The notes under the pieces were generated by a model. That model worked only from the letters and a program-made list of their open reading frames with translations, ran no database searches and was not told the origin of the DNA. A stretch of DNA of 64,000 nt from Cliona cf. orientalis (taxonomy: Eukaryota; Porifera; Demospongiae; Clionaida; Clionaidae). A program made the translations under genes and the position numbers. The stretch's first letter is position 1, and each line of letters starts with the position of its first letter. The stretch is taken from the NCBI GenBank assembly GCA_963930775.1, contig CAWVNT010000142.1, positions 1 to 64,000 of the forward strand, in the 5' to 3' direction. This document shows, piece after piece, positions 3,301-22,036 of this stretch.

Positions 3301-3383
3301 AATTGGAAGGATTGGATGGTGTCAACTCAGAAATATGTGAACAAGTGAACAGCTATTTAGCACATTTTCTCAAAAATGTGATC
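371..3383 (+). pseudogene. KDZ/Zisupton-like transposase relic with cysteine-rich region
   Basis: An ATG at 371 follows a good acceptor (CTCCTCAG, 355-362). Its frame runs to 3340 with only two interruptions, TGA at 464-466 and TAA at 752-754; after the second it is open for over 850 codons. Counting from this ATG, a cysteine-rich region (CDCGG and several CxxxxC pairs) lies near residues 480-550. The motif LACDGTHIG puts a candidate catalytic Asp at residue 624. The motif YYDFACSLSEYC puts a second at 936, followed by an FHAIGHICG block. This order resembles KDZ (Kyakuja-Dileera-Zisupton) DDE transposases and their HMGXB3-like relatives. At the 3' end a +1 shift near 3311-3315 moves to a frame containing NSEICEQVNSYL, the ending such proteins would be expected to have. 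Three lesions mean this copy is probably dead, although a shorter product from a downstream Met is possible. Family assignment is from motifs only. Confidence 0.65.
3366..3383 (+). repeat. Candidate left terminal inverted repeat
   Basis: TTTCTCAAAAATGTGATC pairs with the complement of 22013-22030 with two transition differences. The first TCGTNAC-type motif (GTAACGA) follows 13 bp inside, at 3397. The sequence is A-rich, so chance similarity is not excluded. Confidence 0.4.
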
Positions 3384-3468
3384 ACTTTTGTCCGAAGTAA
3401 CGATTTTTGACGCGAATTTTTTTGGTTTTCGGAGTAACGAAAAAAATCGTTACTATATTATCGTGATT
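3378..3468 (+). repeat. Subterminal repeat copy 1, with GTAACGA/TCGTTAC inverted pair
   Basis: This stretch is related to 4062-4156. Both begin GTGATCA, continue TTTGTCCGAAGT then ACGATTTTT, and end with a TTACGAAAAA- or TAACGAAAAA-like tract followed by CTATATTATC. Here the tract includes a perfect 7-bp inverted pair, GTAACGA (3434-3440) and TCGTTAC (3447-3453), separated by six A residues. Confidence 0.6.
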
Positions 3469-4061
3469 ATTAGCTTGATTATATTTTAAATGTTCGAATG
3501 CAATTTTACCAATGCCAGACATTATTTATAAAAGAAACAAATCATATTATTGTTACGTCACGAAAGCTGGAGAAGATGATGACTCATCAATGTATTGTCC
3601 TCCATAAGAGAGGGTAGATTAAGTATCTTTTGGAACTTTTTGTAAGTATTTTCTGGTATTGCGTCCATTTTATTTTTTAATAATTTTAACAAAAATCGTA
3701 ACGAATATTTACACAGCAGTGAAGTACAATTTTAAGGGAAAATTACCAAAAAATAGTTTTACACACTTGAAAAAATTATTTCGCAAAACACCATAAATTG
3801 ACAAAAATACAGTTGACTATTTATTTAGTGAATTCCATTCAGTGTTACCTCATTTATTCCATCAAATTGTAGCGTCTCAGTTGGCCGTTACTCACCTAAT
3901 TTTGTAAAGGTTCATAAATTGCATGGACCAGAAAAAGCAAAAAGCATAACTTTAAAAGAAATATCAAAAATGTGTTCCCTCTATTGGCTTAGCCATTTAA
4001 TAGGTCTCGTTATCCGTCTTTGTATCTTCCAGTGTGATCACACCATGAGCTGTCAGAAAGC

Positions 4062-4156
4062 GTGATCAAATTTGTCCGAAGTCACGATTTTTCAGGCAAT
4101 GTTTTGCGATGTTTTTGAGTTACGAAAAAATTATCGCTACTATATTATCAGATTTT
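4062..4156 (+). repeat. Subterminal repeat copy 2
   Basis: Diverged copy of 3378-3468 with shared blocks in the same order. It contains GTCACGA at 4081 and GTTACGA at 4119. Its presence shows that the GTGATCA-containing sequence at the left border belongs to the element rather than to the KDZ gene. Confidence 0.6.
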
Positions 4157-4471
4157 ACGGGGGGATATTTCAATTTCTGTAAGTTATCTTAATGGTACTT
4201 TCCTAGTTCATTATTATTGTTTTTTGTGTTTTTAGGTGTTCATCCCTGGCAGAACAGTCAAGTCAAGTTTTATTTTTTTATTTTTTACCGACTTATCTAT
4301 CGCAAAACTTGTAATTTGAAACGGTTTTGAATTATATAGTATGTTGTAAAATAAAATTAAAAAAAACAATACATATTTGTTTGTTTATCTCAACAGTATA
4401 ATTTATTACAAAATATAATAGAATACTGGTTCAATATTCTTATGATATAGTATGTCATGGAAATGTGTGAA

Positions 4472-4671
4472 TCAAAAAGTACGGCTCACAAATCTTAGCA
4501 CCACTTTTTAAATGCAAGTAATTAAATGCAAGTAAACGAGTATTTCGTGACTCATTTACTGAAACATTTTGATCTTTGGCTCAAAAAGTACGGTTTACAA
4601 GTATTCACTACCACTATTTAAATGCAAGCGAATGAGTATTTTGTGACTCTTTCGTTACTCATTAACCAAAC
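4472..4671 (+). repeat. Two adjacent diverged copies of a ~90-bp repeat
   Basis: Copies start at 4472 and 4581. Shared blocks are TCAAAAAGTACGG, then ACCACT followed by TTTAAATGCAAG, then GAGTATTT and TGACTC. A TCGTGAC site (4545) is in the first copy and TCGTTAC (4652) in the second. A third, poorer copy lies at 5391-5455. Confidence 0.6.
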
Positions 4672-5117
4672 TTGTTAAATAATACATATATTGTATGATG
4701 AACATCTCTGATTGAAAACTTTTGATATTCATGATATCTACTACTCATGCCATCTTCTGGATCAGTATTCCGTTTGAGGTAACTTTTGATACATTGGCAT
4801 TAATTTCACAATATAGCCCTTTGGTCCATATATATATTTACACAATACACATTTTTACTTACTTTTACTTTACTTTTACTTACTATCCATACAAAATTAA
4901 CATCATACTCATTATAAATCTCCAAAAGTCTCCAAGACTTGCATTCTTCCCACATATATCTCATCACGTTTTAGTTCCAACAGTCTCAATAGTTTTTCGA
5001 TGGTCCCCAAATGAACTGTCACGAACAGTTACATTAAATATTTCGTAACTAATCAACATCTCTCATTCCATGTAATTTATCTTAAAGAAATATCCTATAA
5101 CATAAAAACTAAAACTG

Positions 5118-5240
5118 TATTATCACCCCGTCGGGTACCTCATTGACAATAAAACAATCTATAAGTAAGAAATCATGGTACTTAGTCTACCAGGTATTAT
5201 CACCCCCTCGGGTACCTCATTGAAACTAAAACAATTTATA
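5118..5240 (+). repeat. 77-bp-spaced direct duplication
   Basis: TATTATCACCCC followed by CGGGTACCTCATTGA occurs at 5118 and again at 5195, with similar A-rich sequence after each. This is a local duplication with no coding content. Confidence 0.6.
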
Positions 5241-5390
5241 GTAAACCTAGCCAAACAATATTTCTGGCATTATCTAACGCATATAAATAAATTGAAACTT
5301 TTTCCAATTTTTGAAGTAGAAAAGTAATAAAGCAATCACAAAAGTTGTGACAAAAACCAAAATACAAAAAGTAGTCCTTTTCCGTAAGGG

Positions 5391-5455
5391 AAAGCTTACA
5401 AGTGGTTACTACCACTCTTTATGCAAGCTACTGAGTATTTCGATACTCTTTCAGT
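5391..5455 (+). repeat. Third diverged copy of the ~90-bp repeat
   Basis: It shares AGCTTACAAG, ACTACCACT, TTTATGCAAG and GAGTATTTCG in the same order as the copies at 4472 and 4581. The TCGTNAC site is degraded here (TCGATAC). Confidence 0.45.
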
Positions 5456-5913
5456 AAAACCTAATGAAAAGTCACGATAATTCATATAGATCTTGGATGT
5501 AACTTTTTAGGTTTGCACAAAACACATAATAGCAAAGACGCTCCCGATACTGTCAGTGACTCAATCTAAATTGTGTCACTATATCCGACGAATTGCTTTA
5601 CTGTACTAATAAAAGTACACAACCTCAGATATTGTCGTTTGAAAATTTAGTCCACGTATCAGAAGACTACCTACTCCCCACCTGAAAACAACCCACCCGC
5701 ACCCAAAAAAAATACATATCAGCGTATTACTACATAACTGTATGAGTTTTCCTACTCCCACATATAAAAGCAACCCTCCCTTGATAAAAATACATGAAGC
5801 CACAATCCAACAGTACACTGTGTCACTGCGAAACTCTCATTAAATTATAAACTCAATGAAAATCTGTAACGTTTTTTTTTTTTTTTTAGAAAAAGCGGTG
5901 TTTTGAAATATTG

Positions 5914-6471
5914 TTACATTTTAGCCACCTCACGACTGCACTTCCTACAAGATTGCACACATGGTCCTACACCATTATATTTTCTCCCGTAGTCCCATGT
6001 TATCTCCTCGCCATTCTTATGTCACGTTTTGAAAAAAATATTATCTCTAATTTACCTTTTGCAGTAGCATAAATTCTAGGAGTAGCATTAGGATGCAATG
6101 AAGAATGGTTTAACAGTTGACCATAACTTTTATCCATTTTTGGATCATAATTCATATAAAAAAGTTCCATCCCGCAACTAGTTTTTTCTAATAATTCTAC
6201 TAAGTAATTACACTTGTCTTCATCAGGAAGAAGATATTTCTCTGCATAAGTTCGTGACAGTTGGACTCCTCCATAATTGCACAACGGGCGGTTTTTTTTA
6301 ATTAATGCATTGGCAAAAACTCCTCATCCCTCTTTAAATCCGGACTTAATTTCAATTCCAGACCACATCTGGTTTACACATTTTTCCCGTAATGAATCTG
6401 GAATTATTTTTCTGAGTGGGAATCCAAACTTGGACCCGGACTCTAAATAATTCGTTTCTTCATGATGAATC
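5914..6471 (-). pseudogene. SET-domain methyltransferase module (KMT5A-like), frameshifted
   Basis: Read on the minus strand, this segment carries the landmarks of a SET domain in order: GVFA after a Gly-rich turn, CNYGGVQLS, GMELFYMNYD, GQLLNHSSLHPN (the NHS signature), EIIFFSKRDI, then GEEITWDYG and a cysteine group (CVQSCRKC) resembling a post-SET tail. SET proteins transfer methyl groups from S-adenosylmethionine to lysines, usually on histones. Three lesions break it. A 15-A run (6472-6486) puts the upstream acidic protein one frame off, ending it at 6460. TGA at 6324-6326 sits where GxGVFA proteins would normally have a sense codon, perhaps from CGA. A missing base near 6011-6016 separates SKRDI from GEEITWDYG. 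The relic ends at TAA 5914-5916. It is probably the C-terminal domain of the gene starting at 8892. The KMT5A affinity is a motif-level judgement. Confidence 0.7.
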
Positions 6472-8892
6472 TTTTTTTTTTTTTTTGCTAACCTTTTTCC
6501 TATGAATTACGATCTCTGGCTCTGAGTCAGAGGAAACGTTTGGAGATTCATCTGTGACAGTTGTAACAGTGGTGTCAGATTGAGAAAAAATTTGTCTATC
6601 CACCTCGTGTCTAGTTTCTTTAATAATTGTACCTTCGTCAAATACTCCTCCTTTCAAGAAGTCTTGTGCATATGTATCTATATTCCTCCATAGACATCTA
6701 TATTCAATCTCGTCTTTGTACTCATTATCCATTAATCTATCAATTATTCCTTCAATGCCAAAGGTACTACCGTCATAAGCTGCATCATCTCTTGCATTAT
6801 CAGCATCAGTATCAGTAAAACACGCAGTACTTTCGTGACTCACAGAGTTCGACATTTTAAATGTTGATAAAGGTACATTGTCATCATCAGATGAATCAAA
6901 ATCACTTTGTAATACTTCCTTTTCATTATTTCCAACATTGCCACTTGTCTCTTTATCCTCTTCAGATGTAACATCAACCCCACTCTTTTGTGGACCATTT
7001 TCTTCTTGATTCTTGTCACGATTACCAACATCTACACTGTTGTTTGTATCATCCTTAACTGAAGGTTCACTAACTTTACCGTCATGATCACTTTCTCTGC
7101 CATCAATCATAACTATTTTTCCTGAATCATTTCCAACATCGCCACTTGTCTCTTTATCCTCTTCAGATGAAACGTCTTCAACCCGACTCTTTTGTGGACC
7201 ATTTTCTTCTTGATTCTTGTCACGATTATCAACACCTACACTATTGTTTTCATCATCATGAACTGAATGTTCATTAAATTTACCGTCATGATCAATTTTT
7301 CTGCCATCAATAGTAACTGTTTTTCCTGAATCATTTCCAACGATGCCACTTGTCTTTTTATCCTCTTCAGATGAATTGTCTTCATTCTTGTCACGATTGT
7401 TTGTATCATCCTGTTCTGAACGTTCATTAACTTTACCGTCATGATCACTTTCTCTGCCATCAATCGTAACTGTTTTTCTTGAATCATTTCCAACTTCCCC
7501 AGTTATCTTTTTATACTCTTCAGATGAAACGTCTAGATTCTTGTCAGGATTACTAACACCTACACTGTTGTTTGTATCATCCTGTTCTGAATGTTCATTA
7601 ACTTTACCGTCATGATCACTTTCTCTGCCATCACCCGTAAATGTTTTTCTTGAATCATTTCCAACATCGCCACTTGTCTCTTGATCTTCTTCAGATGAAA
7701 CGTCTTCATTCTTGTCACGATCACCAACACCTACACTGTTGTTTGTATCATCCTGTTCTGAATGTTCATTAACTTTACCGTCACTATCACTTTCTCTGCC
7801 ATCACCCGTAAATGTTTTTCTTGAATCATTTCCAACATCGCCACTTGTCTCTTGATCTTCTTCAGATGAAACGTCTTCATTCTTGTCACGATCACCAACA
7901 CCTACACTGTTGTTTGTATCATCCTGTTCTGAATGTTCATTAACTTTACCGTCATGATCACTTTCTCTGCCATCACCCGTAAATGTTTTTCTTGAATCAT
8001 TTCCAACATCGCCACTTGTCTCTTGATCTTCTTCAGATGAAACGTCTTCATTCTTGTCACGATCACCAACACCTACACTGTTGTTTGTATCATCCTGTTC
8101 TGAATGTTCATTAACTTTACCGTCATGATCACTTTCTCTGCCATCACCCGTAAATGTTTTTCTTGAATCATTTCCAACATCGCCACTTGTCTCTTGATCT
8201 TCTTCAGATGAAACGTCTTCATTCTTGTCACGATCACCAACACCTACACTGTTGTTTGTATCATCCTGTTCTGAATGTTCATTAACTTTACCGTCATGAT
8301 CACTTTCTCTGCCATCACCCGTAAATGTTTTTCTTGAATCATTTCCAATATCGCCACTTGTCTCTTGATCCTCTTCAGATGAAACGTCTTCATTCTTGTC
8401 ACGATCACCAACACCTACACTGTTGTTTGTATCATCCTGTTCTGAACGTTCATTAACTTTACCGTCATGATCACTTTCTCTGCCATCAATCGTAACTGTT
8501 TTTCCTGAATCATTTCCAAGATCCCCTGTTGTCTCTTTATCCTCTTCATATGAAACGTGTTCAACCCTACTCCTTGCACTTTTCTTGCCTGATTCTTTTT
8601 GTGGACCATTTTTTTCTTGATTCTTCTTATCAGCCTTCTTATTCTTTGTTTTATTTTGTTCCGATCTATTTTCACGCACTCTACTTTTATTCTCCTTCGT
8701 CTTTGAGTTTTCACTCGATTCCAATGACCTGCACAAAAAGAAAACATCTAAAATTAACTAGTATTTTACAATAGTAACAACAGAAATTTACACACGTGTA
8801 TTTCATATAGTATCAATATTTGCTGTCCATATTAAAGCAATCTCTCACCATTTGTTTGTGTTACACCTACTCGGACAAAATACCCTATTCAT
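6460..8892 (-). CDS. Acidic tandem-repeat protein, two exons, N-terminal part of a SET protein
   Basis: Exon 1 (8892-8849) is ATG plus 14 codons and ends at a GTGAGA donor in phase 2. Exon 2 starts at 8728 after a strong acceptor (TTTTTGTGCAG) and resumes in the same frame, giving NKW-SLESSENS at the junction. The protein has a basic stretch (residues ~20-60: KTKNKKADKKNQ and similar), then roughly nine copies of an acidic Ser/Glu/Asp-rich unit of mostly 57 residues with SSEED and TSGDVGNDS blocks, then a unique acidic region and a lysine run. SSEED-type sites suit CK2 phosphorylation (general knowledge). The frame closes at 6460 just after a 15-A homopolymer; one base fewer would continue it into the SET module. 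A TATATAAA box stands at 8951-8958. Function is unknown beyond the presumed SET fusion. Confidence 0.65.
6472..6486 (-). other. 15-A homopolymer at the acidic/SET frame break
   Basis: The T15 run on the plus strand encodes a Lys run on the minus strand. With 15 bases the frame exits to a stop at 6460; with 14 or 17 it would run on into the SET module. It could be a slippage mutation, a consensus error, or less likely a functional frameshift site. Confidence 0.7.
6960..8530 (-). repeat. Coding tandem repeat, 171-bp units (57 residues)
   Basis: Equivalent points (TTGTCACGATC or similar) fall at 7015, 7219, 7390, 7543, 7714, 7885, 8056, 8227 and 8398. The last five are spaced exactly 171 bp and are nearly identical; the earlier ones are spaced 204, 171, 153 and 171 bp and are more diverged. 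Recent expansion is therefore at the 5' (high-coordinate) end of the gene. Confidence 0.9.
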
Positions 8893-8950
8893 ATCAATCC
8901 TCACATCAAAACGAAAACAGTCAATTCAAAACTTGTAAACAAATTTCAGT

Positions 8951-8958
8951 TTTATATA
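8951..8958 (-). promoter_or_regulatory. TATA box upstream of the acidic/SET gene
   Basis: TATATAAA on the minus strand lies 59 bp upstream of the ATG at 8892 and about 45 bp past the stop of the upstream gene. This spacing leaves room for a start site about 30 bp downstream and a short leader. No experimental support. Confidence 0.45.
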
Positions 8959-9004
8959 TTTTCCTGCAGAGTGGCCCAAATTTTTACACCAGACAAATTA
9001 CAAC

Positions 9005-12000
9005 TTAGTTATCAAAGTCATAATCTTTACTCAACTGTGACAGAACACCATCAGATATAGGCGATAAATTTACGTAACACTCCTTAAAACCTTTAGGTTT
9101 TACTGGAGTGCTAGTTCTTCTACCATACGCGAGATTTCTCTTTTTCAACACTTGTTCATTGCATTTGGAAACACTTTCATAATCTTCGAGGTATAACATT
9201 TGCCTTGGTTCTTGAAACACAAGAAGGTTTTTCTCATGCAAACGCCTTCTTGTTCTGCGGCCAATTGGAGATTCCCCTTGTGAAATATCTTTCAATCCTT
9301 CTTTTACATGTATCAAAGGCAAATCGTCCTCGTAATCCGAATCATCAGAGTCACGATTAAATATCGTGACATTATTGACATTACTTGAATTAGTGGAGGC
9401 TGAGACAAAAGCAGTGGACTCTTTGTTCTCATTTATATTCCTTTGCGAAACCCTCTTCTTACCTTTTCGTTTAGTAACACTTCCAGTCATAGGCCTAAAA
9501 ATGGGTTTCTTTGCATGTGCGTATGGCAAGGAATATGTGTCCCAGAGTTTGTTTTCCACATTTTCTCCAATGTACATATTTTTGTACAGTGAAGCCCATG
9601 CAAAGTCTTCTACAAGTGCTCTATTTTTGCATTCCCCTTCTTCGTTTAGAAAGCATACTTCACAAAAGCAACTAGATTCACGAACCTCAATTATTCCTCT
9701 AACACCAACATTGCGTACAGAGTGTAATGTCATAGTACCTTTTACAGTTCTGCTGACTGTATTAACATCACGATTTATTTGAGACACCTCATAATAATGT
9801 CGTTGCCAATGGCAACATTTAGTTAGATCGTCATTATGTATTTTCAATTTTAATTGACAGTAGCGATAGATATCGCCTGCATTTGAAAATTCATGTGTAC
9901 CTGATCTTACCACGCTATCAATGTGCATAGACAAACGACCAATGGCCCCATCGGCCTCAGCTTTTCCATGTTTTGCACAGAAATAATTTCGCATAACGGG
10001 AATATCTCCATATTTGGAAACATCATCAAAAACTCTATGTGACTTATATTGCTGACCACAGTTGTCTGACCACATTACAATCCTTTTTATTGTGACCTTA
10101 TTGTCCCTCAAGTGTGTCAGCGCCTTTTCTACAAACGTATTGACCGCAAAGCTGTCATGCTTCACATCATTTGACAATATCATTATTTCGTCACGAACCA
10201 AGTGGCCACACTTGCAGGGGCATGGATAATATGCAATTATAGGGTGCAATGTTGTTTGTTTCCTACACCAGAAGGCACCATGTACTTCATCTTGTTTGTG
10301 GTGACTATAATTTGTAGCAAAATCCATGATAAGCAATATGTCACCATCCTGAAGCTGTTTTTTAGATTCATCAAACTGAACCGCTTGCCAACGAAAATGA
10401 AACAGGTGTATAGACATATCATTGACAGACTTAACAAACAGTGACAGTAATTCAGCTAGAGTTCCCCAATATCTCACTTTGTCCAAAATCCTCTTCTGCT
10501 TCTCTTGCTTACTATCGGAAATATTCTCAGTCCTGCCTAAAATTAAGTTTTTCCACTGGGACCATGTCACAACTTGATTCCAGTCTACATCTGGATTCTG
10601 TCTTACTATTGATTCTTGTAATTTTGTAATGCCACCACAATCTTTGCAATGGCGAAATATACAATTACGATTATGATCCGAAATAGTTACCCTATGTTCG
10701 GGCCTATCCGTCTCCCATTCCAATCTCCTACATGCACCATTTCGTGACTCATTGTTTCGTGACACATTGCTTTCACTTTTTTTTGGGGTTGGACATAACG
10801 AATTTAGAATGTTTTCTGTCATTCTCCTCTTAATTCCCTTTACTTTTGATACAATCAATGCATCTATAAGTAAACTGTTGTTAACACAGTCTGTACACTG
10901 AGTATCTTTAAACGGAATCCTTTTTCTAGTTCTAAATTTGCCTTTAATGGACCGGTAAACTGAGCTCTGCGAAAGTACTTTGAAACCAAGTTTTAACTGC
11001 TCTTTAACATATGTATCGTACGCAACTGCCAAAGAAGTGCGCAGATAGTAAAAGTTTGTATATCTTTTAAAAGGTAGTTGCATTGAAATTTTATTGCTTT
11101 TGTAGCAATTAACAATATTTGCCTTGGACGACTTTGATAGTGACCTGGCATGTGGTTCTTGCCTAATTGACACCAACCTATGTAAATGGCTGTACTGCAT
11201 TTTCAATTTTCTTGCTGCGCAACGAATACTATATTTCTTTTTCAGAAGAGCTACACATTCAGCAGCTTTTAAAATATTCTTTGATGTCTTGTATTTTTGT
11301 ATTTTGAGCACACTATGCACCAAGTCTGAATCGTTACTGTCCATACTTACAAAAGTACAATGCCGTTTCATTATTTGAGACATAGTTCCTGAGGTAGAAG
11401 GCGACTTCATCATTTTACCAACAACACGATTGAGAACAGCACATTTCAATTCTTTTGAATCTGGCAAATTGCTGTTGCAATCGTAAGTGCGTTGCCTAAT
11501 TTGCTTTAGGAATTTCTCTGGTGTTTTGTAAATATTGGTTTTATTATCAATTTTGAGGTGTGAGGATTGTGATAATGCAGTACGGCATAATGTATCTCCA
11601 TGCTTTTGTGATGCCCTCCTCATTATGCGCTTCAAACTATGAATTCTTAGTAATCGCTTTTTGTCCCTATAACGTTGCTGTCTAAAGAGAAAAATAATTA
11701 TAATAGTTACGATTTTAAATGTTATTTATCTACCTGTCTGTCTTCGTATTACCCTTGCCTATTGCTTTGCTACTTTTTCGATTCGTTGAATCAGCTAGCA
11801 TGTTGTAACCATCTTCTAGTGAACTAAATGGAGGAAATATGCATGCATGGTTAGTCATGGATAAATGGGATACAGTGTAATTTTACCTTAATCTCCCTTG
11901 TTCTCGTATTTTCATCCTTTTTGCTGTATCCATCTCGCACGGACTAACATTTGATCTAAACATTAGTTCATATATTTGTCAAATGCATGAACAATTAGGG

Positions 12001-15000
12001 AAAAACACTGAATGAATATGGAAAGTGTAGCAACTTGTACAGACTTGAAACAGAAACGCTGAAGAATGCTTTCGTGACATTAATTATGGATGGGTCGGAT
12101 TTGAATTGTAAACAGAAACGCTGAAGAATGCTTTCGTGACATTAATTATGGATGGGTCGGATTTGAATTGTAGAGCTACCTTTTATTACGTTTATCCTTT
12201 TTTTGGTCAGCTAACACCTTTCGTCGGCGACGTTGTCTCATTGCAGCTTGAAAAGTCAATTTTTCTCCTTTACTCATGTGTGCCACATCTACTTCCGGTC
12301 CGTAAACAACATTTCTACCACTTATGGATGGCACAAACTGACCACGTGCAGAACCTTAAATAAGAAAATAAAATGCAAATGTACCGAGTTGTATTTTACA
12401 AGTAAATCACGATTTATGTTGTCGTTAATTAAGAACTAATGATTAAGATTTTAACAAAAGTACAAAAGATTTTCATGTTCTGACAAAATTATAAATGTCA
12501 TTAAACAAGACGAACCAGTAGTATAGCCTGTTTGGCTATTGCGGTCAAATGAAATGTCACTGATAGATTGCGAATCATTCCAAACAAGTATAGGAATTGG
12601 GCTACTGTCACTCACAATGTCGAACAATGGCCTGAAATATGTCAACGGTTATTATTATTGCACAGGGTTAAATTGAGGAATGTTTATGAAAGTTTAATAT
12701 TTCGTGCGAGTTCTTCATAGCTATGTTTACTTACGATTTGAGGATATGCTCTTCGTACTGCTCTTTATACACCCTTAACAAAATGAAGTTTTCGTCAATC
12801 TCATTGAGAACTTCAGAAATTCTAGAATGTAATGAAAAATCCCTAGAAATATTTTGAATCTATTCCTGAGGTGTTAATACAACTCTAAACCAAAATCGTG
12901 ACTAATACTGCCATTGTAAAAATATTTAGGAAACATAATTAATCAAATATTAGACACAACAAATGTGTCACGTTTCATGTGTGACACCTATTTCCAGTTT
13001 GAAATACCGGTACTGTGGCATCAAGACAGACAGACAGACAGTGACTATCAAACCTTAAACAAAGACGTTATTGTTCAAAGAAAAGACTTACGTTTTGGAA
13101 TATTCAGTAGATGTTTGTGACACATTATTATCTGCCGAGGTTGGTGCTGCAGTTTGGTTATCTTCAATGGGCATAACAATGCGTGACATGATCGCAGCTT
13201 CATTCTCTTTGAAGTACTGTTTGTTGACATAGCAGTTGTAGTGTGCATCGAGATTTTTTCCTCTTCTAACCGATGATGGGTGAAACAACATAAACACATT
13301 GGTGTTGGACTTGTATCTTGTACAGTCATAAGACGTTAGTGAAAATGTCTTCTGATTTTTTTGGATAATATTGAGGTTCACACCCAGGGCATTCGCTGTT
13401 GCCCCAATGCAAAGATCAGCTACTTCAAGAGTATATTCTCCTCTTTGAAAAAAATCCGAACATAACACTAAGAAAGTTTCCTCCGAGGATGAATCATCAA
13501 ATTCTCGGTAAAATTTAAGGTGATTTCGTATCTCCGTCATGACATCGTGAGCCAAAACGGCCATTTGTTTATCAATTCCTTGTTCCGCTAAACTTATCAG
13601 TAATGCTGAGATGAAACAGAATCCATTTCCCGGAATTATCACTTCATGATAATTGCTCTCTCGCAATAATTTGTTAAACTTGGAAGAGGTCAAGAGACCT
13701 CTCTGGGTTGACAGAAATGTTTTTCTTATGATATTGTCTTCTTCAATTGTTTTTTTGTCAGGTTCACAATTCTGAATGGGCGAATGTTTTTCAAGAATAT
13801 GAAGCTTCATCAATGTAATTTCACATGGTTGAAATCCGCATTCAAATGGACACAGACATTCAATTTTATCATTTCCTTCAACAGACACAGACTGATGCCT
13901 TGGTGAACTTTGCAATGTCGGTGGAGTATCGAAATCAGAAATTTCCGGTAAAGGGCTCACTGAACGAGAAAGATTGCTTCCAGCTACTTGACTGGGGTCA
14001 CGTTCTTCTTCTTTAGAGTTACGATGTGTACGTGATTTTTTTGCAGACATTTTTCCCCCTTCCCTACTTTCTTGGCCGTGTTCATCTACAACTTCTGCCA
14101 CTTGTTTACTTCTAGCCTTTCCCACTGCTTTATTAGCTCTTGTTTTCTTTTGCTGTACAGAATTAACGTCTTGTTTCCCTTCTTTACCTGGAACTTTGTT
14201 TTTTTTTTGGCGAGATTTTTGCTTAGCACCTGTTAATTTATCATGGTCACGTTCTTGATGATGATTGGGCTCTGTAATGTCGTTGTTCACCACTTTGTTA
14301 AGTTCTTCACCATGGTTATGCTTCACAACAGTTGATTCTTCATCAGACTTAGGCTCTGTAATCTTTTGGTTCACCACTTTGTTAAGTGTTTCGCAAGGGT
14401 TTGTCGTGGCGAGTGTTGATTTATTACTATCCAAATGTTCATGAGACTTGGGCTCTGTAATACCTTTCTTCGCAGAGTTTTTTTCCAGGTCCATAGATTT
14501 TTCACAATTTTTTAATTCATGGTACTTACTCTCATCATCATCTGAAGTCCTGTCTGGAGAAGGTGTGTAGGATAGCCTTGACAGTAGAGACTGTGGGCGA
14601 GATGATGCTGTTGAAATTTGAGACGGAGATCTCGATGTAATGGAACGTTTCCTTTTGGAAGTAGTTGAAGTAAATTTATCTTTGCGACTGGTTCGATCCT
14701 GTGAACGGAATCGGCATTGTGAATTATCACGAGAGGCAGATCGGGATCGAGATCTCGCATCTGGATGCTTCTCACAAGTGTGGCTATGTTTCTGGTGTTT
14801 TCTTCGCTGCGAGGTGGATCGCGATCGGGATCGTGATAGTGATCTCCCATCTGGATGCTTCTCAGAAGTGTGGCTATGTTTCTGATGTTTTCTGTGCCGT
14901 GAGGTGGATCGTGATCGGGATCTCGCATATGGATGCCTCTCAGAAGTGTGGCTATGTTTCTGATGTTTTCTGTGCCGTGAGGTGGATCGTGATCGGGATC

Positions 15001-16021
15001 TCGCATATGGATGCCTCTCAGAAGTGTGGCTATGATTCTGATGTTGCCTGTGCCGTGAGGTGGATCGTGATCGGGATCTCGCATATGGATACCTCTCAGA
15101 AGTGTGGCTATGTTTCTGATGTTTTCTGTGCCGTGAGGTGGATCGTGATCGGGATCTCGCATATGGATGCCTCTCAGAAGTGTGGCTATGTTTCTGATGT
15201 TGCCTGTGCCGTGAGGTGGATCGTGATCGGGATCTCGTATATGGATGCTTCTCAGAAGTGTGGCTATGTTTCAGACGTTTTCTGTGTGGTGCGGTGGATC
15301 GTGATCGAGATCGTGACCTCACATATAGATGCATATCAGAAGTGTGGCTATCTTTGTGAAGTTTTCTGTGCCGTGAGGTGGATGACGAACGGGATAGTGA
15401 TCTCTCCAATTCTTCATATGGGAAATTGTCAAAATATTTGATACTCTGTCTGTGCGATGAACGGGATGCCAATGGCGATCTTGATCTCTCACTCCGCTCC
15501 TTTGCCAACTTAGCCTTTGGAGAAATGTTTCTATATTTGTGATTTATCCTGTGACGTGAACGGGATCGTGATCTTGAGCCATTTTTGCTGTGAAAAACAT
15601 CTTTTGAAAAACTTTGAGGAAACGTGTAACTGTGACTCCCTCTAGATATTGATCGCGAGCGTGATCTGGTTGAAGATTTCTTCCGATCCTTGGTTCTGGA
15701 TGGCGATGGGCTTTTCCGACGGTTACTGGTGTATGGCATGTCACGTTTATTACCATATCGCACGCCTCTTGGTGTTGAAGGTGATCTTGTTCGTGATCGG
15801 TAATGATTTTTAGCTGTGCAAATGTCCCTTGGCCTTGAATGAGACCTGCTGTGCCTCTGTTTCTTTGAATGCGAGAGTGATGGAGTTTCATGCTTTCTTT
15901 TCCTTGAAATTCTGTTTCTATCCTTTGAATTTGATCGTGAGCGGGATCTTCTGTGGGACCGGGAATGTTTGTAATATGTTTCTTCATCTGATGACGAATA
16001 GACGTTATTATATCTTGGCAT
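9005..16021 (-). CDS. Seven-exon RS / OTU / HTH / DD35E transposase fusion, 2047 aa
   Basis: Exons: 16021-13092, 12821-12735, 12631-12516, 12354-12180, 11955-11887, 11823-11734, 11681-9005. Every junction has GT-AG borders and keeps frame (phases 2,2,1,2,2,2). The first donor is GTAAGT; the third (GTTCGT) is weak. Domains: RS-rich region with 26-residue repeats (residues ~10-440); charged linker; Cys/His finger (CPFECGF, LHILEKH, ~720-747); OTU-like fold with Cys in GNGFCF (802) and His in DAHYNCYV (927); short basic exons; HTH-like stretch (AARKLKMQYSHLHRLV); and a DDE core with Asp1609 (LIMDF), Asp1695 (WSDNCGQQ) and Glu1731 (HGKAEADG). I infer the element's transposase, with OTU acting on ubiquitin-like conjugates. 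The OTU Asp is Asn here, so activity is uncertain. The alternative is two genes, with a stop at 12176 and a second ATG at 11933. The C-terminal family resembles uncharacterised invertebrate proteins. Confidence 0.72.
9950..10327 (-). other. DDE catalytic core, D-85-D-35-E
   Basis: Codons: Asp at 10324-10322 in LIMDFATNYS, Asp at 10066-10064 in MWSDNCGQQYK, Glu at 9958-9956 in HGKAEADGAIGR. Counting residues gives 85 between the Asp pair and 35 between Asp and Glu, the classical DD35E spacing of RNase H-like integrases and transposases. An Asp two residues after the Glu could be used instead. A CPCKCGH cluster lies between the first two acids. Confidence 0.7.
12048..12171 (-). repeat. 62-bp tandem duplication in intron 4
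   Basis: The segment beginning AAACAGAAACGCTGAAG at 12048 is repeated exactly from 12110. Each copy contains TCGTGAC (12072 and 12134). It lies wholly in the intron after the exon ending at 12180, next to its donor. Confidence 0.9.
13024..13041. repeat. Short (GACA)n microsatellite
   Basis: Four to five consecutive GACA units lie in intron 1 of the RS/OTU/DDE gene. Confidence 0.85.
13141..13700 (-). other. OTU-like cysteine protease domain
   Basis: Within exon 1 of the fusion gene, GNGFCFISALL supplies a catalytic-type Cys (codon 13618-13616) and DAHYNCYV a His (codon 13243-13241), about 125 residues apart and fitting the compact OTU fold. OTU enzymes cleave ubiquitin or ubiquitin-like chains. 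The usual GDGNCF loop is altered to GNGFCF, losing its Asp. Confidence 0.65.
14750..15400 (-). repeat. Coding minisatellite, 78-bp units (26-residue RS repeats)
   Basis: The plus-strand marker GTGTGGCTATG recurs every 78 bp from 14868 onward. It encodes minus-strand units of the type HSHTSERHPYARSRSR followed by STSRHRKHQK. Edge units are more diverged, with one shorter and several longer variants. The length of the RS region is therefore likely to vary between copies. Confidence 0.9.
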
Positions 16022-16119
16022 ATTTGAAGAATGTAACAATATATAAAGCAACAGTTACTTCACTGAAAAATATCTCAATACTTGAGATTTAATATAATGA
16101 CACGTAAATAAGAAATAAA

Positions 16120-16337
16120 ATGGACAATGTATCTGAAATCACTATTCACATATTATGAAGTTTGTATATATGAAATCGTTGCCTTAGCAGCTTATGCAGT
16201 TCTCCTGCTATTTCTTCTTTTTTCAGTGGATATTCTCCAATTTTGTCACAAAACAACTTTCATTTTCCAAATTGAAATATTAACTGTTCGGCTATTTGTT
16301 TCCTGTCCTCGTCCAATGTTTAATCAAAATTTTCAAT
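16120..16337 (-). pseudogene. Degenerate tandem copy of the 3' part of the 122-aa coiled-coil gene
   Basis: Blocks such as TATGCAG, TCTCCTGCTATTTCTTC and TTTGTCACAAAAC match 16365-16570 at an offset of 245 bp. The open frame is lost on the coding strand. It lies between the coiled-coil gene and the fusion gene. Confidence 0.65.
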
Positions 16338-16390
16338 CACAGATAAATAAGCAACAAAATGGACAATGACGATGTATCTAAAATCACAAA

Positions 16391-16759
16391 TCACATGTTA
16401 TGAACAGAGGGTATATGCCACCATTGCATTAGAAGTTTATGCAGCTCGCCTGCTATTTCTTCTTTCTGAAGTTGCCACTCGGCAACTTTGTCACGAAACC
16501 ACTTTAATTTTCCGAATTGAAGCACTAACTGATCGGCAACTTTTTTCCTTTCCTCCTCTAGTGCTTCATCAAAATCTTCACTGGCATCTATTTCTTTTAA
16601 TTTGCCCGCTAATCCATCACATTCTGCTTTTAATAACTCTTCGAATTGTTCGGCAGCTGCTTGTTCAGCATCAGCAAGCAGTAATTTCTTTTGGTGTTCT
16701 GTAATCAAGGCTTCGAGGTCTTTAACATAGTGCTGTTGTGCATAATGTTGTTCCATCAT
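16391..16759 (-). CDS. Small coiled-coil protein, 122 aa
   Basis: The ATG-ATG start at 16759 is preceded in frame by a stop (TGA), so translation begins here; the stop is at 16391-16393. The sequence is Glu/Lys/Leu/Ala-rich with heptad-like spacing for most of its length (for example LEALITEHQKKLLLADAEQA and FEELLKAECDGLAGKLKEID), and ends with a Trp-containing tail (LLMQWWHIP). No enzyme motif is visible. A candidate non-coding first exon, with donor GTGAGT at 17447 and acceptor AG at 16789-16788, would link it to the TCTCGCGAGA promoter motif at 17491. The 3' part has been duplicated downstream. It may oligomerise with another element protein, but this is a guess. Confidence 0.55.
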   Translation of the reverse strand: MMEQHYAQQHYVKDLEALITEHQKKLLLADAEQAAAEQFEELLKAECDGLAGKLKEIDASEDFDEALEEERKKVADQLVLQFGKLKWFRDKVAEWQLQKEEIAGELHKLLMQWWHIPSVHNM

Positions 16760-17797
16760 TCAATTGTACCGCCACTCATGTATAAATCTAGCCAAAATGT
16801 AGGGAAGACAATATTAATATAACGATTTTTGCTCATGCAATTTACAACCACATAGTCATAGGTAATTTAAATTAAAGTCTGTCGATGATAAAGCTATGGA
16901 TTTCTAGTGTAGTGTTTCTTGATAAGTTATCGTGACTCTTGAAGAAATTTTGCTGCAAAGAAATGCAGAATATAACACTACACTTGTATTCAGTCGGCTG
17001 TTTGTATCAATAGAATAGAGAAGAAAAAAATTGTACCCTGTAAAAATTATGATAGAAGCTTTGAAAAATAACAAATTTCTAAAGGTGAAATACAGACATA
17101 AAATTATCGTGACATCTATATCTGGGACATCTATCGTGACATCTATACCTGGGAAAAACACTAAAAATGTTACGTTTGATGTCTGAATTTAGATATAATC
17201 AATAAAATAACCTTCGAATTTTATGACTGACGTACCGAGCTCAGATAAATGAAATCATTACAAGATGCATTGCCGAATGGAAAACCAAAATGGCGGCACA
17301 AAGATTATGAGCCCATTTGACACTAATACGCACATAAATATTCAATTCAAAATGCTTGACATTGGCAGAATGACATGACCTTAACTGCCATTAATCAAAA
17401 TGTTTATAATTTGAAGAAGTAACAACAAACTTGATGGTAATACTCACAAAAAACTTATTCCCAACCTAATCTTTCGCGCCGAATGTAGGATCTCGCGAGA
17501 GCGATATTTGGGAATCGAGACTACACAGGTTATGATCGTAACTTAAATCGTGATTGGGTTTAGAAACGGAATAAATAACAGTCACGTCAATTGTGTATAG
17601 AACTAACTACATAAGCAAGACATAAAAACAGTGTCGTAAAGTTGGTGAAGCTTTGACAAATATTTCAAAATATTGTGTTTGCCAAAATTAGACATTCCTC
17701 CAACAAAAATGAAGGAAAGTCTATTTTGTGAAAGGGGTTAATGTCTAGAATATCTAGAATTAAGCAAAAAAATTCTTACTTCAGAGTTACGATGTCA
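16760..17797. other. Intergenic region, promoter side of the 122-aa gene
   Basis: No coding exon is seen. The interval holds the TCTCGCGAGA motif, a candidate leader exon ending at 17448, and TCGTNAC-type sites at 16930, 17107, 17134, 17536 and 17786. A pair of near-identical short segments (ATCGTGACATCTATA type) lies at 17106 and 17133. Confidence 0.55.
17491..17500. promoter_or_regulatory. TCTCGCGAGA palindromic promoter motif
   Basis: This is an exact match to the 10-bp palindrome known from many animal TATA-less, often bidirectional promoters. It stands in an otherwise CpG-poor interval, 44 bp upstream of a GTGAGT donor at 17447 on the minus strand, and so suits transcription of the 122-aa coiled-coil gene. 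Confidence 0.55.
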
Positions 17798-20700
17798 TCA
17801 TTGACCTAGTGGATGGGGATAGGGCCGGCCATGAACACATTCGTAGCAACAGCATCCTCCACGGTGTCCAGTATTTTCCCTTTTCGGAGATGGCGTTCGT
17901 GGCCGAGTTGGCGAAGGAGATCTGTGTTCTGGGATAGGCATTTCAAAAGTACTGCCCCGAGAGCTGCCAAACAAAGTGAAAGGTTCGGGCAGAGGAGGAT
18001 CGTCAGGTCTCTCCCTTCTTCTGTCAGAGTCTTCTCCAAAATGGTGATTGCGGGCACTACCACTATGACTACTTCTCCATTGCCTCTGATGTGATGGAAT
18101 GGCCGAATACAGGGCACAACCTAAAGCTTGTATGAATGATATTTCGGGGGGTTTGCGAGGAACAGGAGGTGGGGTTGGAGACCAATCTTTTCTTTCTTCA
18201 TCATCAGATGAAGGTGAATCAGACTCTATTTGTTTCATGAAGTCTTCAGGGTCAGTTTCAAAAAAATCTGCGCAGAGGGTCAAGCGATCCTTTTCTAAAT
18301 GTAATTTAATCAGTTGTTTTTCGAGATTTTTAATTTCTTTTTTTATTTTTTTATGTCTTTTTTTCAGTTCTTTTAAAGAAGTTTTTTGGTAAAATTGAGG
18401 AAAAGGTGGAAGAGGAGGGGGTTGATCAGGATAACGATTTTGACGAGGTGGAGGTGGAGGGGGTTCATCTGGTGGAGGCACAACGGGTTCATCAATTATA
18501 AGTGTAAGCTGTTGATCTGGTGCAGGCACAGTGGGGTAATGATAACCACCTGTAGGGGGTTCATCTGGTGGATGCACAAAGGGGTCATCAAATTCCAATT
18601 TAGGTGTAAGCGGTCGAGCTGGTGCAGGCACAATGGAGTCATCATCATCACGTTTCGGGGGTTCATCTGGTGGCTTATGTTTTTTCTTCTCTCTTTCCTT
18701 CTTCTTTTTCTCTTTTTTTGCTTCTTCTTTCTGCTCCTTTTTCATGATTTTGCGCTTCGCTCCCACTCCTACTTTTTCCCCTTCTTTAGGAGGAGGAATA
18801 CGGATTCTCCCAGTACTTTGATCCTGCAAGTTAAGTTATGTATTGATTTATGTTCTGTCACATTTTAGTCAAAATTACCTTTTGATTCAAAGCAAAGCCA
18901 TTGTATAGAAAAACGTTGAATTAACCAAGTATACAAAGAATGAAATTTGAAATGATATTTTATTCATAAAAACCAAAGTGATTCCAACACTCCGTAGACT
19001 AATTTAATAAAACGTGACAATCTTAAAAAGAAAATACAAGTTAGAATAAACTTACAAACCAGTCACTAAGTGGGCGTCCAGGAGAATCTTGCATAAGAGC
19101 TCTATGGAAGGCTTTTGTTGCATCTGCTGAATCTTTCGCTTCTCTGTCATATTTAAACAGCTCAACCTCTCTCCCTAAAGCTTCAGCTTCTTGAAACACT
19201 CTGTCTTCTTTCTCTTCCAACTTCTTCCCCATTTGTTCTAGAGCATCCAGTTCCATCTTTTTTGGTTGTTCTAAATAGAAAAGGCGAACTTATTGAGTAT
19301 GAAATGGGGTGAATAATTAAAGATTAGACAATTATGATTTAGAACATACGTAGTGATAGATTTTTAAGATTACAAAGTCACGATATTCCTTGAGAGGAAA
19401 AAGTTGGGATCACTTTTGACAATTACATTTGTACATTATGAGAACATTCATGGTTAAAGTAAATAAATGGATTTGGGATTTCGTTTGAGAGAAAATCAAA
19501 AAGAACTTATTTATGTCCGAATAAGGATTGGTATAGTGGAATTATTCATATGTTGTATGAATTTGAAATTCTAGTCAATTCTAGTACATTTGGTTTTTAA
19601 ATTGCATAGATCGTAATTTGTACTCACTGCCTGCAGCATATTTACGATTAATTCTTTCTTGAAGTGCCTCACATCTATTTTTTTCCTCCTGGTATTTTGC
19701 GAAATGGATTTCCAATTGCTTATTTGCAATTTTTTTAGTATTTTCATTTTCTAAAGTAGTTATAATTTCTTTAACGTCCTCTTTAGTTTTTTTCTTTCGA
19801 GGCATCGTGACTAAATGAATGCAGGCACAGCTGCAGACTGTGGAGACAAAAGTCTCTGCAGTGACAATAAAATTATCATAGATAACATTTTGGGGTAAAT
19901 TTAGAATATTATGCAACGGTCAAAGTGATCCAAACATAAAGATCGCAGCTGCAATGCAGACATGGGAAAGCCAATGAAAAGCCAAGAGCATATCAAGAAT
20001 TTGTAAAAAGTGACGGTAAATGCATAATTTTATGATTTACGATAAGCAGGAAAACTCATGATCAAGTAATTTAATATGAGGGGATCCGTTAGACTGGATG
20101 AACGACAGAAATATTTGAATGAGAATTCATATTCGGTGTACACTGATCTGGTCATTTGAAACAAAATTAAAACATTTAATAAGTACTTAGACAATGAAAA
20201 AATTTACAGAATTCCATTACCGAATAATTCCAATTGATGTAAAATTCCATAGCACAAATTCATTTTCAGGAAAAAAGCATAATTAAATTAAATTGTGTAC
20301 AGACATGTGATCCTTGCAAATTGCCGGCTGGCCTTAAATGACCAGATCAGTGGACAGAGGGAGTCATGGCTAATTAGCCTTTTGTTGGCTGAATGCATTT
20401 TGTAGTCAATCGTGCAACAAGTCATCCAAAGACACAATGGATGTTATTTATGTCAGATAATACACTTCGCCACGGACATTATTTGCCCATAAATATCAGC
20501 AAAAATGTGACGTGACGAAACAAAAATATTGCAGTTTAATTTTAAGTTTTAATAATTGGAATATGAATTAAATTTTCTTTTATGGTGAACATGTAGCATT
20601 TACAAGTGATTATGTGGTGAAACGGAGTAAAATGAAATTCGTGATGACAAGGATCACATTTTTGCGCAACCAGTTAAAAACGTGACGACATAATTCCCAA

Positions 20701-20920
20701 CAAGAACATTTACATCAAATGTCACGTTTTTGCGCAACCAGTTAAAAACGTGATGACATAATTCCCAACAAGAACATTTACATCAGATAGACAAGAATAA
20801 TTTAAATATTAAATTAATTTACAGTAATGAAATGATGCAAGTGAAAAAAATTTGATACTCACTTCGCTTTCGTGATGGAATTGCTGATGGTGAAAAATGG
20901 CTACTCCTTTTGCGAACCAT
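17798..20920 (-). CDS. Four-exon coiled-coil / proline-rich protein, 493 aa
   Basis: Coding exons 20920-20863, 19810-19628, 19270-19056 and 18823-17798 join in frame. Donors are GTGAGT, GTGAGT and GTAAGT; acceptors are CATTTAG, CTATTTAG and CTTGCAG; phases are 1, 1 and 0. The protein opens with a short basic Ser-rich segment (MVRKRSSHFSPSAIPSRKR), then a lysine-rich coiled coil (MPRKKKTKEDV onward), a second charged helix region, a KKE-rich stretch, several PPDEPP repeats with poly-Pro, another coiled coil (TSLKELKKRHKKIKKEIKNL), and a Ser/Arg/Pro tail ending in a CCCYEC cluster. I do not recognise the family. Charged coiled coils plus proline repeats suggest a scaffold or structural role. 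A further leader exon probably ends at 21170 (donor GTATGC), joining the acceptor at 20938-20937. Confidence 0.65.
20659..20788. repeat. 68-bp tandem duplication
   Basis: TTTTTGCGCAACCAGTTAAA starts at 20659 and again at 20727, followed in each by ACGTGA, GACATAATTCCCAACAAG and ACATTTACATCA. The copies differ at few positions; one carries GTGACGA (20682) and the other GTGATGA. Confidence 0.85.
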
Positions 20921-20936
20921 GACGTTGTGCCTCCAC

Positions 20937-22012
20937 CTGAAGGCAAAAGAGTAAAGTTATAATGTATATTTAATACATTTCTTACGATAAATAATTTAAT
21001 TTGTTAATGAATGAAGACAATGTTTCGAGTAGATTTGTTCCAGGAAATGACTACATGGTTGAAACAAGGAATAATAAATGAATGACACACCAGTTTATAC
21101 AAATGTTTTCCCAATTACGCCCTTAAACTATTAAAGTAAACTATTAACTAGTAATAAACATAAGCATACCTCTATTGTGTTGTGAATACTGAAATTTAAA
21201 ATTTTGACATTGTTCCTCGTGGCCAAAATTTTCCCCCTAATGACGTCACGGAAATGTTGTACACCCGGCAAAAAAATTAACTCGAGATGGCTACACATGA
21301 TAGTGTAAAGAACTACAATGTAGTCTTCATGAAATAAGAAAAGATGAATTTTTAAACATAATGTTAACAATTAAATTCCAATTATATTTATTGGAAAGAC
21401 ATAAATGTGGTGTCCCTTCATTACTTACCGTATCGTGACTGCGTTACTCAGCGTTACATTCTAGGTAGAAAAGGATTATGCAGAAACAGTTCATGAAATA
21501 AATTATTCGTACACCCACAATTAAACCACAAACTTAGTTTAAATTGTCCGCTTGAGAAAAAAAAAAAAAAATCAATAATCAATGCAATATTATTAACAAC
21601 CTGTATCCAGAATGACTCACGATTTTTAATTTGAACATGACCATTGAAAAATTTGAATATTAAATCGAGGCTTAAAACATAGACAAGAAGTAGAGAAAAG
21701 AAACATGTAACAAACAGAAGAAAAGCAAAACAGATTTATATTTTTTGAAAAAATTTAATGTAAATTTTCCCCAAAGAGAGATTATTTTTATCGTTACCCG
21801 GACAGTGGACATAGATAAATGTAATAGTATAAAATCATGAATCGGGGGAAAAAATACTAAAACAGTCACACAAGAGAAAATGTTTCATATATTTAATTTG
21901 ACAAAGGGAAATGATGCAAAAATAAAAGGAAAAGAGTAAATTTAAGATCTATGTATTTAGTTGTTTTGTATATTTTTATACGGTGGAAAGGAAGAGTTAC
22001 GATAATAGTTAC
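20937..22012. other. Right arm: 5' region of the four-exon gene, otherwise non-coding
   Basis: Apart from the presumed leader exon (donor at 21169-21168) and the CRE-like site, no coding exon is visible. Four TCGTNAC-type motifs lie here (21433, 21791, 21996, 22008); the last two are 12 bp apart next to the candidate right end. Confidence 0.5.
21241..21248. promoter_or_regulatory. CRE-like palindrome TGACGTCA
   Basis: This exact TGACGTCA is 71 bp upstream of the candidate leader-exon donor (minus strand) of the four-exon gene. That places it at a sensible distance from a transcription start for CREB/ATF-type factors. Only the sequence match supports it. Confidence 0.4.
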
Positions 22013-22030
22013 GATCACGTTTTTAAGAAA
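22013..22030 (-). repeat. Candidate right terminal inverted repeat
   Basis: The minus strand reads TTTCTTAAAAACGTGATC, matching 3366-3383 at 16 of 18 positions. It overlaps the last GTTACGA site by two bases and ends 6 bp before satellite-homologous sequence begins. Confidence 0.4.
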
Positions 22031-22036
22031 ATACGC

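Follow-up and report, generated by a model that had tools for sequence, protein, structure and literature searches.

The first 64 kb of contig C82 in an assembly made from the sponge Cliona cf. orientalis, here called the window, were analysed (contig 77 kb; assembly 217 Mb in 149 contigs). Positions 3360-22036 are interpreted as one 18.7-kb DNA transposon, a reading to which we give a probability of about 0.8. It has terminal inverted repeats (TIRs), a recurring short motif, a transposase of DDE fold, an OTU-like protease domain, a SET domain and two charged proteins. As to its place, it is best read as a new lineage of giant, multi-gene elements in a superfamily of DDE transposons, perhaps Sola2-like. 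An earlier note on this DNA had drawn a unit of ~18.7 kb with ends at 3366 and 22030; the unit was retained and each end was shifted by six bases, since the match with contig C72 sets in at 3359 and a satellite register starts at 22037, directly after the element. DNA searches of the assembly give lower bounds, and those with the element and the satellite omitted C82, the window's own contig. The coordinates of all features are collected in Table 1.

Ends, flanks and recurring motif

The edges of the element are sharp, lying against a KDZ transposon gene at the left and a 757-bp satellite at the right. The imperfect inverted repeat that the earlier note had seen at the borders was borne out: the two ends agree at 20/24 positions, and the best of 5000 random pairs drawn from the element interior at 15/24. 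The same ends were found at different loci, the right end on contig C42 (19/24 and 18/24 positions shared with the left and right ends of the window element) and the left end on C72, where a solo segment of 613 bp starts at the same base and is preceded by sequence unrelated to the window; a second full copy was not found in the assembly. The solo segment may be a derivative that is one-ended or lacks autonomy. In the window both ends have TA beside them, so that this copy by itself would allow a duplication of TA or termini of the form TA..TA; C72 and C42 have AA at that place. Because these two loci lack TA beside their ends, the termini are read as GC..GC. As a separate observation, the left-end stretch 3378-3462 is repeated internally at 4062-4149 (80% over 91 columns).

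The saturation with a short motif claimed earlier was confirmed for CGTGAC, one of three words tested (CGTGAC, TCACGA and GTGATC); the element contains 43 copies of CGTGAC where 4.0 would be expected. Part of these occurrences lie inside a coding tandem repeat in the acidic region described below; the non-coding ends contain 12 and 5 (0.6 and 0.4 expected), and the count lies above the control maximum in 6/6 parts of the element. None were found in the KDZ flank or the satellite, where merely 0.2 and 1.8 were expected. On C42, 8 were counted outside the DDE gene (1.4 expected, control maximum 6) and 3 within it (0.4 expected, control maximum 3). TCACGA follows a pattern like that of CGTGAC, merely equalling the control maximum in introns. 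GTGATC is enriched in some parts only, the DDE exon and the introns not being among them, and is below the control maximum at the right end.

The left flank contains an open reading frame (ORF) for a KDZ-type transposase at 755-3337 (Pfam CxC4); this domain was found there only and was absent from the four element ORFs scanned with Pfam. A second frame at the KDZ gene stays open to 3359, the same point at which the element starts, and carries what we take to be the usual KDZ motif. The gene appears to be interrupted by the element at the left end. For the KDZ gene (755-3359), the next assembly matches reach 26-49% identity over parts of the protein, with no close copy among the matches listed. 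On the right, the satellite runs from 22037 to the window end and was also read to near the contig end (C82:77000); among the matches listed, its relatives are on C100 (66-68%), with one 44-bp match at 95%. The mismatch between a KDZ gene on one side and a satellite on the other is so far without explanation.

Genes of the element and a second copy

The RS/OTU region and the DDE region had been described as fused in a protein of 2047 amino acids (aa). The fusion held, in the form of a seven-exon minus-strand coding sequence that unites the RS/OTU exon with the DDE exon in one open frame, with GT..AG at every intron; the length is now 2054 aa. The genes lie on one strand, as stated earlier, and this is the minus strand. 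Their splicing indicates a eukaryotic origin. The OTU domain of exon 1 gave E=0.009 with Pfam, under the curated cut-off, and has an OTUD1-like fold. Eight homologues of the RS/OTU part were found, two of which share their source and an equal-sized contig with a DDE homologue (P0043/P0025 and P0044/P0030), which suggests linkage of the two parts in these cases.

The DDE core is of integrase/transposase type with an RNase H-like fold and resembles retroviral integrases, Mos1 and IstA in a VIA realignment of the Foldseek list, which is a re-ranking within Foldseek's own list. A profile of the transposase family searched against Protein Data Bank (PDB) sequences retrieved nothing except OTUD1 (E=0.0019) and a pair of chains labelled as RNA-dependent RNA polymerase (E 0.26 and 0.52). 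No Pfam transposase name above the curated cut-off was found for the window DDE and five relatives scanned. The DD35E core of the earlier note was upheld as to the fold and left in doubt as to the spacing: E590, which would give a DD35E spacing, is absent from 3/22 aligned rows, and D592 is invariant (22/22). On these alignments we are unsure whether E590 or D592 is the third catalytic acid.

The DDE regions of the window and C42 are 79-80% identical. Substitutions in the DDE exon amount to 99/837, 81/837 and 192/836 at codon positions 1, 2 and 3, and the transposase protein was therefore under selection during the divergence; the frame of C42 itself has three stops. Such protein-level selection, together with spliced genes, is what a host gene cluster or a domesticated transposase locus would display. 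However, this explanation is highly improbable in view of the diverged copy on another contig, the solo end on C72, the apparent interruption of the KDZ gene at the left end and the broken SET frame described below. The database copies likewise suggest that the element occupies other loci in related species, although their placement is not possible.

Most database relatives of the transposase (24/36) carry a further OTU domain at the C terminus. Just past the DDE stop codon of the window, 5/7 OTU pieces from relatives match at E<=1e-3 in tblastn (best 3e-6; 34-41% identity over 50-51 aa), and the pieces from P0030 and L050 gave no match at 8821-8973 at that threshold. Judged from the sequence, the C-terminal OTU of the window is a remnant, rather than simply absent.

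The acidic-repeat protein leading into a SET module was recovered (Pfam SET at 6323-6003, E=7.1e-7). In the window copy the SET frame is broken, being interrupted once by an in-frame stop and twice by a frame break. The relative P0045 is open through SET (Pfam E=3.3e-12). The likeness is to KMT5A/SET8; a PDB sequence search with the longer P0045 gave a match, whereas the window piece retrieved nothing among PDB sequences at E<=0.1, and NCBIfam gave a sub-threshold match only. Because the SET frame is broken and the second OTU is a remnant only, the window copy is probably non-autonomous now. A side observation concerns ~6466-6480: of the database acidic/SET copies read, 5/7 stop in or close to one and the same run of lysines (poly-A). 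An unstable run length, recoding at this site or an error in sequencing would each be compatible with this.

Two further proteins, of 472 aa (three exons) and 122 aa, lie upstream of the RS/OTU/DDE gene. Their genes, reported earlier as coding for coiled-coil proteins, were both retained; the products look charged and heptad-like, and "coiled-coil" describes this appearance. Their C42 counterparts are ~30-51% identical, and the two proteins therefore evolve faster than the transposase.

C42 starts inside the DDE gene, and the comparison covers the DDE gene to the right end. Over this range every exon has a counterpart, order and orientation are kept, and the right end matches. Exon 1 aligns at 34% in residues 1-88 and at 55% in residues 599-977, with the middle of the RS exon unaligned in that search; exons 5 and 6 reach 40% only. 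The checks proposed in the earlier note supported its interpretation: the genes travel together over the range that C42 covers, with the acidic/SET part outside C42, and the ends coincide between copies on the right in C42 and, to the same base, on the left in C72. This order and exon structure make it improbable that the element is a composite of unrelated mobile or host fragments beside a satellite, with a common strand and end repeats by coincidence. Its differing flanks, the lack of a target duplication beyond TA and the internally repeated left end would agree with such a composite, but RS/OTU and DDE share one open spliced frame, and a single motif recurs throughout the tested parts and had no occurrence in the flanks.

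Table 1. Features of the giant transposon in the window
Feature	Coordinates	Strand	Remarks
Whole giant transposon	3360..22036		CGTGAC 43 times, both orientations
Left TIR	3360..3383	+	GCACATTTTCTCAAAAATGTGATC; 20/24 to reverse-complemented right end; C72 homology from 3359
Right TIR	22013..22036	-	minus strand GCGTATTTTCTTAAAAACGTGATC; 20/24 to left end, 18/24 to C42 right end
Left-end segment, solo on C72	3359..3970		C72:987-1599, 99%; AGAA(GC) both sides there
Acidic-repeat protein into KMT5A/SET8-like SET domain	5918..8730	-	acidic ORF 8730-6463; best SET part 6323-6003
Remnant of second, C-terminal OTU	8821..8973	-	just past DDE stop codon
RS/OTU/DDE gene, exon 7: DDE transposase domain	9005..11681	-	D468, D554, then E590/D592 (906-aa stop-to-stop numbering)
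RS/OTU/DDE gene, exon 6	11734..11823	-	GT..AG, in frame; C42 homologue
RS/OTU/DDE gene, exon 5	11887..11955	-	GT..AG, in frame; C42 homologue
RS/OTU/DDE gene, exon 4	12180..12354	-	GT..AG, in frame; 71% to C42, 59 aa
RS/OTU/DDE gene, exon 3	12516..12631	-	GT..AG, in frame; 67% to C42, 42 aa
RS/OTU/DDE gene, exon 2	12735..12842	-	GT..AG, in frame; 73% to C42, 33 aa
RS/OTU/DDE gene, exon 1: RS-rich region, C2H2-like finger (by eye), OTU-like domain	13092..16021	-	ATG 16021, donor GTAAGT 13091
Degenerate partial duplicate of 122-aa protein	16149-16259		
122-aa charged, coiled-coil-like protein	16394..16759	-	51% to C42, 122 columns, E=3.6e-38
472-aa coiled-coil-like/proline-rich protein, exon C	17798..18823	-	spliced frame; C42 homologue E=4e-11
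472-aa protein, exon B	19056..19270	-	donor GTAAGT, in frame; C42 homologue E=8e-15
472-aa protein, exon A	19628..19805	-	ATG 19805, donor GTGAGT; C42 homologue E=6e-16

Relatives and classification

The transposase family is broad, with 36 matches in the protein data searched, 24 of them with a C-terminal OTU; the seed, P0011, is one of the OTU carriers. A quick tree (46 rows) joins the window and C42 with P0001-P0005 and P0015 in an eight-row group (SH-aLRT 100), in which no row has an open C-terminal OTU and some rows are partial. The window is 99% identical to P0001 and C42 is 95% identical to P0002, and both subfamilies therefore exist in other data sets. These close relatives are known as protein records, without genomic context. 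Within the assembly, in searches that give lower bounds, near copies of the giant family turned up on three small contigs and on no others: C82 (77 kb), C42 (14 kb) and C72 (32 kb). These contigs may be part of the main genome or of a second organism in the sample.

Among 24 pattern matches in a scan of GTDB contigs there was one relative, L050, whose contig bears the title of a Candidatus Poribacteria metagenome-assembled genome and a sample prefix that may point to a coral. L050 has a C-terminal OTU too, followed by a charged ORF. It is probably stray eukaryotic (host) DNA in a bacterial bin, since its gene is of the kind seen here. CGTGAC occurs 5 times in L050 against 1.3 expected (control maximum 6), so that enrichment is not clear. 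In viral contigs the corresponding scan had 36 pattern matches, none of them a relative. This result, a spliced gene and a Pfam scan of the element's four largest ORFs, which showed no polymerase (including the protein-primed DNA polymerase B of Maverick/Polinton), capsid, packaging ATPase or retroviral integrase, leave very little probability for an integrated virus or a Maverick/Polinton-like element, an interpretation that the large size, the several genes and the integrase-like DDE fold might otherwise invite.

Besides C82 and C42, 29 assembly loci match the DDE region weakly (23-39% identity, best E=3.2e-19), as far as seen without the neighbour genes of the giant element. Because they are this distant, they do not break up the unit. 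Compact relatives with the TIR GGGTMATTCCATGT were extended at six loci, and both ends were obtained at four, where they measure 3.8-3.9 kb; they have one ORF of up to 785 aa. Perfect 4-bp duplications were found at 3/4 of these loci (TTAT, AAGT and CATA). Kolobok elements duplicate TTAA, unlike these three. The TIR was not seen in the subgroup L029/L030, and no OTU or SET Pfam match was found in the two compact proteins scanned. The compact transposons (L012-L039) are on chromosomes, and some pairs are 97-99.9% alike; on this likeness they have probably been active recently.

The giant element may be a larger member of a named superfamily, most likely Sola2, with gained modules and the mode of action proposed below, and not a new superfamily; we regard this as a serious possibility somewhat short of even odds. 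The invariant D592 would suit it, the triad of Sola presumably being of DDD type. The compact transposons, possibly Sola2, have a DDE core related to that of the window, TIRs and short duplications. At 23-39% identity to the window, these relatives have 4-bp duplications at 3/4 loci, and such duplications, AT-rich in the examples, are consistent with Sola2 (PMC3627910). On the other hand, the giant ends are unlike the GGGTMATTCCA ends of the compact relatives.

Several observations weigh against the interpretation as one giant transposon of this kind. The flanks share TA only, and neither a longer target site duplication (TSD) nor an empty site was found for the element. Of the copies found in the assembly, only one has both ends, C42 being cut by the contig start. 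The SET frame is broken, and linkage of SET to the transposase was seen in the window only. The charged ORF of L050, which lies downstream of the transposase at the matching place, scored 24.6 bits against up to 28.9 for shuffled controls (79 hits in 200 shuffles); because the score is below these controls, its homology is not supported. The duplication at the fourth compact locus is imperfect (ATAT/CTAT), and the compact ends differ from those of the giant element, as noted. Foldseek by itself gave no DDE match at E<=1e-3.

The earlier statement that no named transposon class has this gene set had to be softened, as OTU and SET are each known from other DNA transposons (PMC2836005, PMC12730594). 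Ginger1 elements, of the Gypsy-integrase type and ~2.6-7.1 kb long, are described there as having a DDE transposase with a C-terminal OTU or Ulp1 (PMC2836005). The C-terminal OTU is shared by 24/36 homologues here; the window protein ends without it and is followed by the remnant. The open OTU of the window differs from that of Ginger1 in its type and in its N-terminal position, and a SET gene is present in addition. Neither the window DDE nor any of five homologues gave a Pfam match to an integrase core at E<=1. A SET histone methyltransferase is reported for HarbingerS and MuDR elements of the oomycete Phytophthora, DNA transposons like the present one but with transposases of other superfamilies, and an OTU/RS fusion is not mentioned in the available part of that source (PMC12730594).

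IS3EU elements also carry cargo genes (TET/JBP, alpha-kinase) and have TA..TA ends with usual 6-bp TSDs (PMC10045372, PMC12730594). The window element shares with them cargo and TA at both ends, but C72 and C42 lack TA beside their ends, which disfavours membership in IS3EU. Helitrons encode Rep/helicase, for which no Pfam match was obtained in the element's four largest ORFs, to which the scan applied. Helentrons are, like the present element, mobile and have an OTU protease in a large protein (PMC6431247). Among the papers listed by the literature searches, none describes an element with DDE, OTU and SET, to judge by titles and abstract starts. OTU and SET have been reported singly, in different superfamilies, and both are present here in one large element.

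There is a sizeable chance that the element deserves a higher rank than that of a variant within a known kind. We tentatively raise a bolder proposal, against which we would ourselves bet: a clade of superfamily rank, made up of giant multi-gene DNA transposons of eukaryotes with a complete chromatin-editing kit (a methyltransferase of H4K20 type, an RS domain and as many as two deubiquitinases fused to the transposase) that would be used against silencing or to steer insertion or repair.

Possible mode of action and a neighbouring repeat family

The transposase would bind to the repeats at both ends and to the CGTGAC sites inside the element. By analogy with DDE transposases, the acid triad would cut, and the element would be pasted elsewhere with a short target duplication, perhaps of 4 bp as in the compact relatives. 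The OTU domain may remove ubiquitin from the transposase or from target chromatin; a related suggestion was made for Ginger1 (PMC2836005). The SET8-like protein might methylate a histone (H4K20) or some different substrate. The RS region and the coiled-coil-like parts could serve nuclear targeting and the placement or assembly of a complex. The net effect would be that a very large element passes host repair and silencing. The presence of OTU and SET together leads to a testable hypothesis, namely that some transposons edit histone and ubiquitin marks, either while transposing or as a way out of silencing.

C72 also contains a further repetitive family (L042-L045), with matches listed on C59, C53 and C127 (18-36 kb), C106, C71, C23, C52, C25 and C72 itself; none of the matches listed is on a contig known to be megabase-sized. 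The same contig has arrays of 11-13-bp units that span 1-2 kb.

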